In this document: positions 5,120 to 16,668 of the stretch, one piece after another
Numbering within the stretch: position 1 is the stretch's first letter
Layout: every line of letters begins with the position of its first letter
Assembly: GCA_944325625.1 (NCBI GenBank)
Contig: CALVAP010000004.1
Coordinates: forward strand, 248,001-312,000
DNA: 64,000 nt
Source: Candidatus Gastranaerophilales bacterium
GTDB lineage: Bacteria; Cyanobacteriota; Vampirovibrionia; Gastranaerophilales; Gastranaerophilaceae
Direction of reading: 5' to 3'
Translations under genes and position numbers: made by a program
Notes under the pieces: model-generated
The model's input: only the letters and a program-made list of their open reading frames with translations
Databases searched by the model: none
What the model was told of the DNA's origin: nothing

Positions 5120-8100
5120 TTACTCGATTGTAAAATCCGGAGCTCCGAACATACCTTCGATTTCTTCGAGAATCGCAGATGGTTTTCTGGCTTGATTTTT
5201 AGCAGCCATAGCCCTTCTTTGCGCTTCTTTGTCTTTTTCTTCGTTAGCATTAGTTAAATGATAATATCCTGTACCAGCAGGTATCAATCTTCCAATAATA
5301 ACGTTTTCTTTCAAACCTCTTAGCAAATCTTTTTTGCCCTCTACCGCAGCTTCCGTAAGAATTCTTGTTGTTTCTTGGAACGATGCAGCTGAAATAAAGC
5401 TTTCTGTATTCAAAGAGGCTTTTGTAATACCGAGTAATACAGGCTCATAAGTAGCTACCTGCCCGCCGGTTTCTTCTACCGCCTTGTTTTCGTTTTCTAC
5501 TACTTGAGCTTCAACCAATTCTCCAGGTAAGAGCTTTGTATCACCTGATTCCACTACTCTAACCTTTTTGGTCATCTGTCTTACTATAATTTCAACGTGC
5601 TTATCAGCAATTTCAACACCTTGCGAACGATATACTCTTTGAACCTCATCTACAAGGTATTGTTGAGCTGCTTCTACACCGCATAGCCTTATTACGTCAT
5701 GCGGATTTAACGGTCCGCTTGTTAACGGTTGTCCAACTTTTATAGTCTGTTTGTCTTGAACTATTATGTTGGAGTCAATCGGGTATTTTATCTCTACTCG
5801 ACCGTTATCGTTTTTAATATACAATCTGGGTACATCGTCTTCAATCTCTATTTCGGCTACTCCATCCATCTCTGCCAAAATAGCTACTTCTTTCGGTTTT
5901 CTTCCTTCAAGAAGTTCTTCTACTCTCGGAAGACCTTGAACAATATCACCTGTTTTTTGTCTTTCGAATACTAATGTCGCAAGCATATCACCACGAAGTA
6001 CCAATGAATGATTATCAACCTGAAGCATTGTTCCCGGACTAATCAAATACGGACGTCCGACTCTTACTTTAATTGCTGATTTACCAACTTCTGTTACTAA
6101 ACCTGATACAGGAGATTGTTCTCCACCTGATGAAAGAACTGTGTCCATTCTCACAAACTCACCAACTTTTACTATTGGTTTTGATTTCAAAGTGATTTCA
6201 GTTTCGGAGTTATCTGCAATTAACAACAATCTTCTAAGCTCTTCGCTGTCTGACTTAATACTTGCAACTGCATCGTTTATTGCCAAAACTTGTGTCTTCG
6301 CAACAGGTGTTTTTGAATCTATCGTTTGACCGTTTTCAACCAAAAGTTCCGTTTGCATTGACGTCAATGTCTTTGCAGAACCTTCAATTTCACGACGAAC
6401 AATCAATGTTTCTAAAACTACAATTCTCAAATTATCGTTCTTGTCAAGCTCAACCATACCTTTTAGATGGCTCAAGTACCCTTGCATTTGCAAAACAAGA
6501 CTTGTTCTGGTTAATGTAGCACCGTCCAGATTTCTTACTCTTGAACCGTCTTTGTATTGTAGTTGAGTAACTGGAACTATATCTATCGCCTCATCTGTTG
6601 ATGCAAACTTAATAGATACATCCTTAGGCTCAATTCTGAATTTTTGTACCGGTCTGATAAGGATTTGAATAGGTTTGTTTGTAATCGACTCTTCATCCAA
6701 TCCAATAGCATCCAATTCTTCATCCAAATCATCTATTTCCAAATTATCACTTTCATTTTCCAATATGGTGACAATTGAAGTTTCTTTAGCTTTAATTTTG
6801 CCGGCAATTACAGTTCCTTTTTCTACAACTTCACCTTCTTCCACTTTCAATTCTGAAATTGAATCAAGCGTATGAAGTTCACCAGGACGAATAACTACTT
6901 CGTGAATAATATCGTTAAATTCCTTAATCTCAACAATACCGTCTATGTGAGTGTATAGGTCTTTAACAACTTCTGTACCGGCTGTGACATATGTTTGTGA
7001 TTCAACCATCTTCAAACTTGCATCTTTTGAAATTTGGTGAATTTCTTCCGGTATAAATACAATATCACCTGCTTGGGTAATTATTTGATTTTCATCAACT
7101 TCTACGTCTATGTATCTTATTTCACCAGAAGACTGAACTGCACACTCATCATCCACAAGCTCTGCTATTATCATTCCGTTTTCTACCGTAGTATCAACAG
7201 GAGATTTAACTATATATTTTTCTCCAGTCTTTTCTACTAACCAGAATTGTTCTTTTTTAGTATTTTCAAAGCTTGCATTCTCTGCTGTTAAAGAAGCTAT
7301 TACGATAGTAAGTTCTTTACCTTGCACAATTTTCTTAATCTTCTTGCCTTCAAATTTTGTATCTTCTATAACAAGGCTTTCTCCAACTCTAACTTCTCCG
7401 CCATGTTCTGATACAACATATGTTTCTGCAAGTTTTTCACCTGCTTTAACTTTTTGCTCGTCCTTTACAAGAACTTTTGAACCGGTAGGCAACGAATATA
7501 CATCGCCTCCCAAAATCCATACTATACCATTTTTGTTAGCTGTTCTTGAAATATTACCCTGACGATCTTTCTTTTCATCAGCTACAAAGTCTTCAAATAT
7601 AACCTCACCGCTCAAATCTGCATTAATATCTTTTGTAGCTTTCTCAGTCAAACGGCTTCCATCCCCTGATGATGCCGGTTCAAACTCGGCTATATGATCA
7701 CCTTTTTTAACTGTCGTACCTTCTGCTACATGCATTACTGCTCCTGCAGGTACGTGGAATTTTTCAGTTCTCTTTGCGGATTTAAGCTCTATATCTGTTT
7801 CTGCAAGAGTTACCTGTACAATATCACCATGACGTGTTCTTAACTCTTTTGTTCTGATTTTTGAAACAATTTCACCATCAAATGGAGCTATAATTTGCTT
7901 CATTGCACCAGAACCCTTAAATACACCACCTGTGTGGAACGTTCTCATTGTCAACTGTGTTCCGGGCTCACCAATTGATTGAGCTGCTATAATACCAATC
8001 GATTCTCCAATATCAACCATTTTTTGAGTTGTTAATGCCCAACCATAACATTTTTGGCATACGCCATATTCCAACTCGCAAGTCAATCCGGAACGAACTC

Positions 8101-8971
8101 TCAATGACTGAACGTCTAAGTCTTCAACAACTTTAACATCTTCTCTGTCCATTGTTGTATTTGCGGGGATTATTACGTTTCCTTTTTCATCTTTTATATC
8201 TTCTGCAATGGTTCTTCCCAAAAGTCTTTCTGCCAAAGGAACAACTACTTTTTCACCATCTGAGATAGCAGTCATTGTTATAGCTTTTTTAGTATGACAA
8301 TCCGCTTCTCTGATAATAACATCTTGTGCTACGTCTACAAGACGTCTTGTAAGATATCCTGAGTCGGCTGTTTTTAACGCTGTGTCTACAAGCCCTTTAC
8401 GTGCACCGTATGATGAAATAATATATTCTGTTACTGATAAGCCTTCTTTAAAGTTCGATTTAATCGGCAAGTCAATGATTTGTCCTTGCGCATCTGCCAT
8501 CAAGCCTCTCATACCTACAAGCTGTGATACCTGTGAAAGGTTACCTCTCGCTCCAGAGAATGCCATCATATAAACAGGATTTAGTTTATCAAAGTTCTTT
8601 ACCACTTGATCTGTCAGTTTCGCAGTCGTTTCAGACCAAGTGTCAATAACTTTTGTATATCTTTCTACTTCCGTAATCTCACCTTTTAAATAACGGTGAG
8701 TTGACTTATCTATTTCGGTTTGAGCTTCGTTTAACAGTTCTTGTTTTTCTGCCGGTACTGACAAGTCGCTTATTGAAATTGTTGTACCGGATTTTGTTGC
8801 AAATTTATACCCCAGGTTCTTAAGGTTATTAGCCAACGTTGCTGTTTTAGCTCCGCCGTATTCCAGATAAGCCTGCGTTAATAAGTCCTTTAGGGCTCCT
8901 TTATTCATAACTTTATTGATAAAATCCACGGATTTTTTCTTTGAAGTTTTTGGAACTAACGTATTGTTCAT
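5120..8971 (-). CDS. rpoC2: RNA polymerase beta-prime subunit, C-terminal part (RpoC2)
   Basis: This is the C-terminal half of beta-prime, which in the cyanobacterial lineage is a separate polypeptide. ATG 8971 (MNNTLVPK) is chosen because AGAGGG lies just upstream; an in-frame extension to 9028 would run through the rpoC1-rpoC2 hairpin and lacks a ribosome site. The 1283-residue product has the second zinc site (C in DCHTKK, then LTCELEYGVCQKCYG). It also has the trigger-loop segment IGEPGTQLTMRTFHTGG and the C-terminal IPAGTGYYH and EEIEGMFGAPDF segments. Between the trigger-loop halves sits a very long insertion of beta-rich repeats (GE..., VKKGD, VEKGTVIAGK patterns), as expected for the SI3 sandwich-barrel hybrid insert of cyanobacterial enzymes. 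Combined RpoC1 and RpoC2 length is about 1850 residues, well above E. coli RpoC. Confidence 0.97.
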   Translation of the reverse strand: MNNTLVPKTSKKKSVDFINKVMNKGALKDLLTQAYLEYGGAKTATLANNLKNLGYKFATKSGTTISISDLSVPAEKQELLNEAQTEIDKSTHRYLKGEITEVERYTKVIDTWSETTAKLTDQVVKNFDKLNPVYMMAFSGARGNLSQVSQLVGMRGLMADAQGQIIDLPIKSNFKEGLSVTEYIISSYGARKGLVDTALKTADSGYLTRRLVDVAQDVIIREADCHTKKAITMTAISDGEKVVVPLAERLLGRTIAEDIKDEKGNVIIPANTTMDREDVKVVEDLDVQSLRVRSGLTCELEYGVCQKCYGWALTTQKMVDIGESIGIIAAQSIGEPGTQLTMRTFHTGGVFKGSGAMKQIIAPFDGEIVSKIRTKELRTRHGDIVQVTLAETDIELKSAKRTEKFHVPAGAVMHVAEGTTVKKGDHIAEFEPASSGDGSRLTEKATKDINADLSGEVIFEDFVADEKKDRQGNISRTANKNGIVWILGGDVYSLPTGSKVLVKDEQKVKAGEKLAETYVVSEHGGEVRVGESLVIEDTKFEGKKIKKIVQGKELTIVIASLTAENASFENTKKEQFWLVEKTGEKYIVKSPVDTTVENGMIIAELVDDECAVQSSGEIRYIDVEVDENQIITQAGDIVFIPEEIHQISKDASLKMVESQTYVTAGTEVVKDLYTHIDGIVEIKEFNDIIHEVVIRPGELHTLDSISELKVEEGEVVEKGTVIAGKIKAKETSIVTILENESDNLEIDDLDEELDAIGLDEESITNKPIQILIRPVQKFRIEPKDVSIKFASTDEAIDIVPVTQLQYKDGSRVRNLDGATLTRTSLVLQMQGYLSHLKGMVELDKNDNLRIVVLETLIVRREIEGSAKTLTSMQTELLVENGQTIDSKTPVAKTQVLAINDAVASIKSDSEELRRLLLIADNSETEITLKSKPIVKVGEFVRMDTVLSSGGEQSPVSGLVTEVGKSAIKVRVGRPYLISPGTMLQVDNHSLVLRGDMLATLVFERQKTGDIVQGLPRVEELLEGRKPKEVAILAEMDGVAEIEIEDDVPRLYIKNDNGRVEIKYPIDSNIIVQDKQTIKVGQPLTSGPLNPHDVIRLCGVEAAQQYLVDEVQRVYRSQGVEIADKHVEIIVRQMTKKVRVVESGDTKLLPGELVEAQVVENENKAVEETGGQVATYEPVLLGITKASLNTESFISAASFQETTRILTEAAVEGKKDLLRGLKENVIIGRLIPAGTGYYHLTNANEEKDKEAQRRAMAAKNQARKPSAILEEIEGMFGAPDFTIE

Positions 8972-9012
8972 TATTATATTTCCCTCTTTATTAATTGTTC
9001 TTGGCAAATATC

Positions 9013-9044
9013 TTAAGCGAAAAGTCAAATGACTTTTCGCTTAA
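9013..9044 (-). other. Perfect 15-bp hairpin between rpoC1 and rpoC2
   Basis: Arms 9013-9027 (ttaagcgaaaagtca) and 9030-9044 are exact reverse complements around a 2-nt centre. The element begins 2 nt after the rpoC1 stop and ends 41 nt before the rpoC2 ATG. No U tract follows on the minus strand, so a full terminator is unlikely. An RNA processing, pausing or mRNA-stability site is more plausible. Confidence 0.7.
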
Positions 9045-9046
9045 TC

Positions 9047-10762
9047 TTATGCTGATAAAATTGATGCTCTTACTGTTTCATTGAATAAAATTCTACCTAC
9101 TGTAGTTTCTATTCTTTCACCTTTTTCATCTCTTACTATAATTTTATCGTGCAGCTTGATTACTCCTGATTCCAATGCACTTATGGCATCTTCGAATGAG
9201 AAATAATAACCTTTTATAGGTGCTGTAGGATCCTTGATAATTGTCAAATAATACATACCAAGTACCATGTCCTGTGAAGGAGTAATAATCGGTTTTCCTG
9301 TCGCAGGTGCAAGAATGTTATTCGTTGCAAGCATCAACATTCTTGCTTCAGTTTGAGCCTCAATTGATAATGGTACGTGAACAGCCATTTGGTCACCATC
9401 AAAGTCTGCGTTAAATGCTGTACATACCAACGGATGAAGTTGGATTGCTCTTCCTTCTACCAAAATAGGTTCAAATGCTTGAATACCAAGCCTGTGAAGC
9501 GTAGGAGCACGGTTCAACATTACCGGATGTCCTTCAATCACTTCTTCTAATATATCCCATACTATAGGTTCTGAGCGTTCAATTTTTTTCTTAGCTGATT
9601 TTATATTTTGAACATGCCCTCTTTCTATTAACTTGTTCACTACAAAAGGTTTGAAAAGTTCAATAGCCATTTCTTTAGGCAAACCGCATTGGTTAAGTGC
9701 CAACTGAGGACCTACAACGATTACCGAACGACCTGAGTAGTCTACACGTTTACCTAACAAGTTTTGACGGAATCGACCTTGTTTACCTTCTATAATATTT
9801 GATAACGATTTTAATGGTCTGTTGTTTGGTCCAACTACTGTTCTACCTCTTCTTCCGTTATCAATAAGAGCATCCACAGCTTCTTGCAGCATACGTTTTT
9901 CGTTTCTTACAATAATTTCTGGAGCGCCCATTTCCAACAATCTCAACAAACGATTGTTTCTGTTTATAACTCTTCTATACAAATCATTCAGGTCAGATGT
10001 TGCAAAACGTCCACCATCCAATTGAACCATTGGTCTTAGGTCCGGAGGCGTTACAGGCAATACATCCATTACCATCCAAGTCGGTTCTGTATTGCTTTCT
10101 ATCAATGCCTCAATCAATCTTAATCTCTTAATCAATTTTGCTTTCTTTTGAACCGAACCACCTGCTTGTGCCAACTCTGCTCTTATTTCGTCAGCAAGCT
10201 CTGTCATGTTAATTTCACCAAGCAATTCCTTAATTGCTTCAGCTCCAATTCCAACTTTTAAAGTGCTTTCTTCGTTTTCAAGTATAAAGTCTTCATACTC
10301 TTCTTCGCTTAAAAGCTGTAACTTTTTAAATTGAGAATCTCCGGCATCTAAAACAACATAATTATTGAAATAGATAACCTGTTCCAGATCTTTAAGTGTC
10401 ATATCCAAAAGTAAACCGAGATATGATGGAATACCTTTCAAAAACCATATATGAGAAACAGGAGCGGCAAGCTTTATGTGTCCCATTCTATGTCTTCTTA
10501 CCTTCGAATCCGTTACCTCAACACCACAGCGTTCGCAGATGATTCCTTTGTGTCTCACTCTTTTGTACTTACCGCAGTAACATTCCCAGTCTTTAGATGG
10601 TCCAAAAATCCTTTCACAGAACAAACCATCTCTTTCTGGTTTTAATGTACGGTAGTTTATAGTTTCCGGCTTTGTTACTTCACCATAAGACCACTTCATC
10701 ACTCTTTCAGGTGACGCAATGCTTATTCGAATGTAATCAAAGTAATCTATACTTGTAGACAA
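9047..10762 (-). CDS. rpoC1: RNA polymerase gamma subunit (N-terminal part of beta-prime, RpoC1)
   Basis: A protein of 571 residues equal to the N-terminal half of bacterial beta-prime. It has the clamp zinc finger ([20 protein letters not shown]), the [25 protein letters not shown] segment, [21 protein letters not shown] and the catalytic [16 protein letters not shown] loop with its three Mg-binding aspartates. It stops shortly after the catalytic loop, at [11 protein letters not shown], which is the usual cyanobacterial split region. At 571 residues it is shorter than the roughly 620 I expect from photosynthetic cyanobacteria. Cotranscribed between rpoB and rpoC2. Both halves are intact with their own starts, so the split is genuine and not a recent frameshift. 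Confidence 0.97.
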
Positions 10763-14431: not shown

Positions 14432-14917
14432 CTATTTTTTTGATATATTTTTTTGTCCCTTGGATATTTCTGCAAAATCAACATTTTTAATCTTAGCCCC
14501 GAATTCTCGAGTAAATCCTTCCACGTTCTCTATTAGCTCACCTAATATTCCATATGCTTTACGAGTCTCGCCTTCTGACCCCGCTCTTAAATCAGAAAAC
14601 ATCTTAACTGCCTCAATATCTTCTTTCCCTGTTACAATATATAAGGGCTGGTCTTGGTTTTCAGATAAAAATCTCGGCATCTTGCCTTTATAACGCTCTA
14701 GACACCTTTTTGTATCGCCATATCCTTTTTCCACTATCTCTTTTATAATCTTAGGAAATTTTGGTGAGCCTACAAACATCACTACATCTGATGAAATTGA
14801 CTTTGCGTATGGCTCTATTACATCTTTGACTACATCTTGTCCTGCTTTTGAAAATGCTTTTGGCGGAACCATTACTCTTTGTATACTTCCAAATGATACG
14901 TTGTTTTGCACTTGCAT
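14432..14917 (-). CDS. Unknown small protein with N-terminal SFGS motif
   Basis: I do not recognise this 161-residue protein. The start is well supported: AAAAGGAG lies 8-9 nt before ATG 14917. There is no signal peptide or membrane segment. Residues 8-11 read SFGS, within a short polar leader (MQVQNNVSFGSIQRV). The rest alternates strands and helices (SSDVVMFVGSPKFPKIIKEIV; QPLYIVTGKEDIEAVKMFSDL), which resembles a small alpha/beta domain. The C-terminus is basic (KGQKNISKK). It is monocistronic: it has its own -10 and its own terminator. The leader resembles those of the proteins at 1937-4375 and 54579-55604. Confidence 0.75.
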   Translation of the reverse strand: MQVQNNVSFGSIQRVMVPPKAFSKAGQDVVKDVIEPYAKSISSDVVMFVGSPKFPKIIKEIVEKGYGDTKRCLERYKGKMPRFLSENQDQPLYIVTGKEDIEAVKMFSDLRAGSEGETRKAYGILGELIENVEGFTREFGAKIKNVDFAEISKGQKNISKK

Positions 14918-15020: not shown

Positions 15021-15081
15021 ACTTTTTTCTCTTACATTATCTTTACCCTGCATTTAAAATGGCAAAAAAGGAAGATTAATT

Positions 15082-16668
15082 ATGTATAACTTTTTCAACT
15101 TAGAGTTCCCGACAGCTATGGAATGTCTAAACTCGGGAAAACTTTCCATTGACCCCCGTAATATTGCTTTAAGCGAAACATTTATCTATGAAACTCGCCA
15201 GCTTACATATTATATACTAAAAATAAAAGAATTAGGTTATGAGAACCTTTCTATGGTTGAATCTGTTATCGACACTCTTTCTTCGGTCAATTTTGGGTTC
15301 GAATACCAACAAAAGGACATCGAAAATCTCCTTTCAGATCTCCATGCCAAAAGAAATGAAGTCGTTGACTTTTATGAGGCACTATGTCGTCAAAAAAACC
15401 TTGACTGCCAACTTCTTCACTCAGCCCAACCGAGCAATGATGATATTTCTCTCATAAAAGCTATTATGAGAGGAGAGAAACAATCCATAAAGAAAAATAC
15501 TCAAATTTCCAGCTGCAAAAAAAATCTCTATCAAATAATGATTATGCTGGCTAAATCTGCGTCCAGCAATATTATGAAACTGGCGGATTACGACGTTGAA
15601 TGCATTTATGAAAGATATCAGGTTTTGGAATTTATCAATGCTTTAAACTTCCTTAATTTTAGAGAAGAAAAAATTGCAAAAAAAATTATCAAATTTGCTC
15701 AAACCAACTATGACCTTAATCTTTTGTTAAATGAAAAATACAAAGAAAAATATTCATCACCTTCTCTTTCTTCAGTAACCTTTAATAGAGTTAAGGGAAA
15801 AGCTGTTCTCATATCCGGAGACAATCTAAATGACCTTGACTTACTTCTCAAGGCCACCGAAGGTACCGGTATAAATGTTTACACCCACGACTTAATGCTT
15901 CTTGCATTCCAATATCCTTATTTCAGAAGATTTCCTCACCTAATAGCTCAATACCAACACAAAGAACGGGATTTTCAACTCGATTTTTCGGAATTTCCAG
16001 GACCTATCCTATTAACTAAAGATTATACAAATAAAATTAATCCTATCTATAGAGGTAATATTTTCTCTACTGATTTTATTTCAGGAATCGGCATCACAAA
16101 AATTAAAAATTATGACTTTGCCCCGCTAATAAAGTCAGCAAATAACATGCAAGGCTTTTCTCAATCAGAAAACAGACTGAGTATTAAAATCGGATATAAT
16201 CTTGATGATATATACAATAAAATGGACAATATCCTAAACAAATTCAACGAAAATCAATATAACGACATATATATTGTAGGTCTGTTGAATTACGGTAATA
16301 ATTCGAGTGAATTTTTTGAAACTCTTTATGAAAAAATTGGACCCGAAAATTATATTATATCTCTAGCATACGATAAAAAAGCCGACAATATTTTTCATAT
16401 TAAATCATATTTTGATTTTTCACTCGTTTACAAACTCCTTGAACAAATAAAAAATAAAATTAACACTGATAAAAACACAATAAAAATAGTGCTAACCCAA
16501 TGTACAAACGCAACTTTGACAAACCTGTTTATATTGAAAAAACTGGGGATAGAAGATATCTACATAACATGCTGCAACGTAAACACCCTAAATCCATCTA
16601 TTATGGATTGTTTGGTTAAACAATTTAACGTAAAACAGCTGCAAGAAGATAAAAACTTTGAACTATAA
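15082..16668 (+). CDS. Hybrid-cluster-protein (Hcp) homologue lacking nearly all metal ligands
   Basis: The 528-residue product follows Hcp/hydroxylamine reductase end to end (family about 540-550). Matching blocks are TLSSVNFGFE (family TLTNVNFD), GKAVLISGDNLNDLDLLLKATEGTGINVYTH (given here in parts: ISGDNLNDL, EGTGINVYTH), FPHLIAQY, FPGPILLT and the C-terminal KKLGIEDIYIT. The ligands are gone. N3 and N6 replace two of the four N-terminal Cys, L21 replaces the fourth, and only C15 is kept. D247 stands at the hybrid-cluster His, L271 at Glu, Y315 at the first Cys, L401/L402 at the persulfide Cys, Y430 and F444 at the next two Cys, and T475 and A477 at the last Glu and Lys. So it should hold neither the [4Fe-4S] nor the hybrid cluster. 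The reading frame is intact with AAGGAAG before ATG. Function unknown: a structural or binding role is inferred. Alignment was done from memory of E. coli and Desulfovibrio Hcp. Confidence 0.8.
   Translation: MYNFFNLEFPTAMECLNSGKLSIDPRNIALSETFIYETRQLTYYILKIKELGYENLSMVESVIDTLSSVNFGFEYQQKDIENLLSDLHAKRNEVVDFYEALCRQKNLDCQLLHSAQPSNDDISLIKAIMRGEKQSIKKNTQISSCKKNLYQIMIMLAKSASSNIMKLADYDVECIYERYQVLEFINALNFLNFREEKIAKKIIKFAQTNYDLNLLLNEKYKEKYSSPSLSSVTFNRVKGKAVLISGDNLNDLDLLLKATEGTGINVYTHDLMLLAFQYPYFRRFPHLIAQYQHKERDFQLDFSEFPGPILLTKDYTNKINPIYRGNIFSTDFISGIGITKIKNYDFAPLIKSANNMQGFSQSENRLSIKIGYNLDDIYNKMDNILNKFNENQYNDIYIVGLLNYGNNSSEFFETLYEKIGPENYIISLAYDKKADNIFHIKSYFDFSLVYKLLEQIKNKINTDKNTIKIVLTQCTNATLTNLFILKKLGIEDIYITCCNVNTLNPSIMDCLVKQFNVKQLQEDKNFEL

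Follow-up and report, generated by a model that had tools for sequence, protein, structure and literature searches.

The gene at positions 15082 to 16668 raises the question of whether a protein that follows the hybrid cluster protein (Hcp) family from end to end, yet has parted with nearly all of the residues that hold its metal centres, is still an Hcp, and, if it is something else, what it is kept for. The gene lies within the window, by which we mean the whole 64,000-nucleotide stretch of a Candidatus Gastranaerophilales genome that was analyzed.

A divergent hcp homolog in the window

The frame on the plus strand is complete, with 528 codons and an ATG start. The first-pass annotation had described an open frame with a good ribosome site, and both hold: the frame is open at these coordinates, and a Shine-Dalgarno-like sequence precedes it at a spacing of six bases. 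The mirrored frame on the opposite strand carries stops throughout, and the six-frame ORF list contains no second long frame across the gene.

15068..15075, plus strand: Shine-Dalgarno-like AAGGAAGA, 6 nt 5' of the ATG (printed sequence)
15082..16668, plus strand: divergent Hcp paralog (pseudo-Hcp), 528 aa (Pfam, NCBIfam and PDB homology, ligand table and clade)

Homology to Hcp over the full length, as first proposed, is borne out far above chance level by sequence searches of Pfam, NCBIfam and the PDB. The protein exceeds the gathering score of PF03063 (Prismane) with 69.4 bits (E 3.3e-19; cut-off 27), aligns to TIGR01703 between residues 15 and 522 of its 528 (171.3 bits), and matches the PDB Hcp entry 7de4 with an E value of 2e-30. 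Its TIGR01703 score lies below the equivalog cut-off of 360.8 bits, so that it is not called as Hcp; among the core-clade copies listed, the others reach about 130-245 bits. Judged in this way, the protein is by descent a member of the Prismane/CODH superfamily, but its score and its ligand set place it outside the Hcp enzymes. AlphaFold models built from two-sequence alignments were weak (pLDDT 42 and 52). The Foldseek list for the whole model was led by Hcp, but at a TM of 0.27 and an rmsd of 21, too poor a fit to bear on the fold, and the best matches to the C-terminal domain of a fragment model were Hcp chains with Z of 7.3-8.6, at the edge of the range of unrelated Rossmann folds.

The neighbors of the gene in the window are glgA and a gene for a 161-aa hypothetical protein (start MQVQNNVSFGS; 14432-14917, minus strand), which has no Pfam or NCBIfam matches and which also adjoins the stripped hcp in one further member of the window's genus (L098). 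At 5120-10762 on the minus strand, rpoC is divided between genes with products of 571 aa and 1302 aa, a layout (rpoC1/rpoC2) known from Cyanobacteria; this split and the small genome size are consistent with the assignment to Gastranaerophilales. In family f7 and in the window's genus the stripped hcp lies next to rpoB/rpoC, and in 15 representative genomes next to rpsL-rpsG; the loci concerned are L063, L066, L070, L073 and others, together with L119, L120 and L123. These neighborhoods suggest an ancient place for the stripped gene in the rpo-str gene cluster.

Loss of the metal-centre residues

We aligned 233 distinct Hcp-type proteins from the same family, order and class with MAFFT and scored 12 metal-centre columns, which in Desulfovibrio vulgaris numbering are C3, C6, C15 and C21, then H244, E268, C312, C406, C434, C459 and E494, together with K496. 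The window protein reads N3, N6, C15 and L21, then D247, L271, Y315, L402, Y430, Y443, T475 and A477, and C15 is the one canonical residue of the 12 that is left. The N-terminal four-cysteine [4Fe-4S] motif is therefore incomplete, and the seven hybrid-cluster ligands (His, Glu, four Cys, Glu) are replaced by D, L, Y, L, Y, Y and T. The 233-sequence alignment confirms the first-pass list of substitutions, in which only C15 remained, with a refinement at two positions: the counterpart of C406 is L402, and that of C459, in the shrunken loop, is Y443 rather than F444.

15088..15099, plus strand: N3 and N6, replacing the cubane ligands C3 and C6 (codons 3 to 6; alignment)
15124..15126, plus strand: C15, sole remaining cluster ligand, present in 90% of the clade (alignment)
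15142..15144, plus strand: L21, where the clade has C21 in 90% (ligand table, alignment)
15820..15822, plus strand: D247 for H244 (alignment)
15892..15894, plus strand: L271 for E268 (alignment)
16024..16026, plus strand: Y315 for C312 (alignment)
16285..16287, plus strand: L402 for the persulfide ligand C406 (alignment)
16369..16410, plus strand: Y430 to Y443, the C434-C459 positions, with the loop reduced from 24 to 12 residues across the core clade (spacing analysis)
16504..16512, plus strand: T475 and A477 for E494 and K496 (alignment)

Ligand counts over the 233 aligned proteins are bimodal, with 62 canonical proteins retaining 11-12 of the 12 residues and 171 divergent ones retaining 0-7; all 12 are present in 61 of the 62 canonical Hcp, which were drawn from this order and class. 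In the core clade, 12 residues instead of the usual 24 separate the positions of C434 and C459, meaning that half of the ligand loop has been lost. C15 and C21 are both kept in about 90% of the clade (147 of 166 core copies) and are lost as a pair in 15 core copies. The window's genus is a rare case with C15 alone, and L21 is a genus-level change that the first-pass annotation did not see. The pseudo-Hcp no longer has the hybrid-cluster ligands, lacks two or more of the four cubane ligands, and is presumably cluster-free.

Distribution and selection

In a mixture-model tree the divergent proteins all lie beyond one fully supported branch (SH-aLRT 100); the divergent set comprises 171 sequences and the core clade 166. 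They are limited to three families of the order, namely the window's family (f1, probably Gastranaerophilaceae) and its sister families f6 and f7; neither the class's remaining orders nor a sample of the phylum contained any. A scan of viral contigs yielded no additional relatives, and one of genome contigs yielded a single relative. Within f1, 182 of 191 genomes carry an Hcp-type gene (157 of the 160 high-quality ones), and an open divergent copy is almost always among them; G055, which has a canonical gene only, is an exception. Canonical Hcp above the cut-off is patchy, present in only 72 of the 191, so that the stripped paralog is the core gene of the family and the real enzyme is accessory. 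The orthologs with similar ligand loss that the first-pass annotation had advised looking for thus form one clade, near-universal in f1. The second, canonical hcp for which it also advised a search is absent from the window's own genome (1.70 Mb, 99.7% complete), in which pseudo-hcp is the sole Hcp-type gene, and is present in other genomes, in which a canonical gene exists alongside the stripped copy.

Pairwise dN/dS has a median of 0.071 in the clade and is 0.08 in canonical Hcp, in agreement with the expectation of a value well below 1; between the window gene and its nearest relative dN is 0.071, with dS saturated near 2.8. The pseudo-Hcp is kept under purifying selection and shows no decay, and the proposal that it is a maintained form stands on this selection together with its monophyly, its near-universal presence in f1 and its coexistence with canonical hcp in other genomes.

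Part-way forms occur in the sister families. L123, an f7 protein, retains every N-terminal cysteine ligand and three of those of the hybrid cluster, and L119 and L120 have fewer ligands than L123. All keep the longer ligand loop and lack the pair of new cysteines described below (C474/C498), L123 having a cysteine at 498 alone. Ligand loss therefore preceded both the loss of the loop and the gain of the pair. Tandem stripped genes were also found, three consecutive in G011 and two each in G015, where the ends overlap, and G051; the tandem loci are L071:6953-11815 (plus strand), L075:416-3685 (plus strand) and L019.

New cysteines and an upstream glutaredoxin gene

In addition to losing ligands, the clade has acquired conserved residues of its own, including Y44, R324, G325 and G337, and 141 of the 166 core copies carry Asp or Asn at position 475. 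The cysteine columns that reach at least 50% in the clade are 15, 21, 102, 474 and 498 only.

15385..15387, plus strand: C102, clade-conserved cysteine (93%; alignment)
16501..16503, plus strand: C474, new cysteine immediately before the E494 position (alignment)
16573..16575, plus strand: C498, new cysteine in the loop equivalent to GPTLPAF of canonical Hcp (alignment)

C474 is found in 98% and C498 in 96% of the core clade, each against 0% of canonical Hcp. Core copies have both (159) or neither (4), and none has a single one. On the tree the two cysteines were gained together once and lost together twice; two independent losses are too few for a tree-based test of co-loss to reach significance. 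Few as they are, these events are suggestive. In both weak models C474 and C498 each directly follow the end of a strand, and a single helix connects the two strands; a beta-alpha-beta arrangement of this kind would put the two cysteines at one edge of the sheet.

The second feature of the clade is its upstream neighbor. A glutaredoxin gene lies immediately upstream on the same strand in 95 of the 164 core copies for which the upstream sequence was long enough, spread over 17 of 35 genera and usually with a gap of 0-27 bp or an overlap, as against 0 of 62 canonical hcp genes and 0 of 5 intermediates. The adjacent glutaredoxins are of two types, split with 100/100 support and found on different branches of the pseudo-Hcp tree, from which we conclude that the pairing has two or more separate origins. 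One or two glutaredoxins per genome score above the cut-off, and often there is none besides the adjacent one. All 14 genomes tested contain a glutathione-synthetase domain. The window's genus has no adjacent glutaredoxin, and the Grx3-type gene of the window genome lies elsewhere, beside unrelated genes. L029 and L030 have lost both C474 and C498 and have a glutaredoxin adjacent, and the pair is therefore not essential to the association. The operon glutaredoxins are mostly of the CPYC type, with CPYS, a monothiol active site, in 14 of 95 (e.g. L074, L090, L137 and L068); the CPYS sequences suggest exchange of the glutathione type.

Comparison with known Hcp classes

With class I/II Hcp (TIGR01703; D. 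vulgaris 1e1d and E. coli 7de4) the window protein shares homology over the full length and the sequence blocks VYTH and FPG, as well as, by prediction, an extended helical region at the N terminus and a Rossmann-like domain at the C terminus. It differs in the replacement of 11 of 12 metal-centre residues, the halved C459 loop, the presence of C102, C474 and C498 and a score under the family cut-off; the gene partner is Hcr in the one case and glutaredoxin in the other. The hcr gene adjacent to class II genes is missing here, and elsewhere the neighbors of pseudo-hcp are glutaredoxin or unrelated genes. As a rule, class I and III hcp genes are solitary (PMC10210160).

Class III Hcp (Mm HCP, 7e0l) shares with pseudo-Hcp the superfamily and the C-terminal domain. 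A stretch of about 100 residues is absent from its middle region, and its cluster ligands are all in place, as they are in all three classes (PMC10502027), whereas pseudo-Hcp has the middle region and has lost the ligands; the C15-to-H244 spacing in the clade is 231, equal to that of the long canonical forms. Most of the canonical Hcp sampled (L036-L062 and other f1 loci) are about 45 residues shorter in this interval (median 186 versus 231), with all ligands retained despite the shortening. The Ni,Fe-CO dehydrogenases of the Prismane superfamily share the fold family, and some groups have single substituted ligands (PMC6344411); there, one or a few ligands are changed, whereas in pseudo-Hcp nearly the whole set is gone.

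What the stripped protein may do

We give an even chance to the reading that pseudo-Hcp is a demetallated, neofunctionalized Hcp paralog, a redox or nitrosative-stress protein that works through its cysteines. C474 and C498, predicted at the ends of neighboring beta-strands, would face the old hybrid-cluster pocket and could make up a thiol/disulfide pair, redox-active or open to glutathionylation, which glutaredoxin and glutathione would keep reduced. The protein might then serve as a thiol switch, or handle disulfides or S-nitrosothiols, in place of metal-based reduction of NO or hydroxylamine. It is the combination of new paired cysteines with a glutaredoxin operon that favors cysteine redox chemistry over a scaffold or sensor. 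A wider claim, which we advance with somewhat less assurance, is that one family may have turned the Hcp/CODH fold into a metal-free, cysteine-based protein with a disulfide-capable pair at the old site, and placed it under glutaredoxin control twice independently.

Against these readings stand the absence of an adjacent glutaredoxin gene in the window's genus, its presence in L029 and L030 without C474 and C498, and the C15/C21 pair, which 90% of the clade still has and which might bind part of a cluster. The CODH D-cluster is bound by two cysteines per subunit and bridges the dimer, and glutaredoxins are able to carry [2Fe-2S] clusters. C15/C21, or C474, the Asp or Asn at 475 and C498, or both groups, might accordingly form a rebuilt metal site that binds a new Fe-S or Zn centre, with the cluster delivered by glutaredoxin. 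The joint retention of C15 and C21, the frequency of Asp or Asn at 475 and the carrier capacity of glutaredoxins agree with such a site, which we nevertheless regard as unlikely. The window protein has L21, T475 and A477; the operon glutaredoxins are mostly CPYC and some CPYS, not the CGFS cluster-carrier type; and the two cysteine groups are lost independently, 14 copies without both C15 and C21 keeping C102, C474 and C498, which makes a single four-cysteine metal site improbable.

The first-pass annotation had offered instead a metal-free scaffold or sensor; on such a view we would take the cysteines to be structural and the link to glutaredoxin to be indirect. Catalytic residues are all lost while the predicted fold and many clade-specific residues are retained, and half of the genera have no operon partner, as this idea would have it, but it leaves aside the recruitment of two separate glutaredoxin lineages as the upstream partner and the rise of a new cysteine pair at the old active site, and we consider it doubtful.

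An ordinary Hcp with ligands merely shifted in the alignment is very improbable: some cysteines do remain in the window protein, but the bimodal counts, the 12-residue cut in the ligand loop of the core clade and the short list of conserved cysteine columns led us to reject it. A decaying relic of a lost Hcp, to which the missing ligands and the patchiness of canonical hcp in the same family might point, is ruled out by purifying selection (dN/dS about 0.07), by near-universal retention of open divergent copies and by newly conserved residues, and is scarcely credible.

Implications for the Hcp family

The physiological job of Hcp has been argued over for decades. Our search of the literature, which covered open-licence papers, found no description of a ligand-free Hcp branch. 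A presumably cluster-free branch that is under selection, and that in some genomes sits beside canonical copies, separates a role of the protein body from a role of the metal. It also provides a clear case of a complex metalloenzyme becoming what is probably a thiol protein, and the sister families have part-way forms. For genome annotation, the stripped proteins of this lineage should not carry the product name hydroxylamine reductase.
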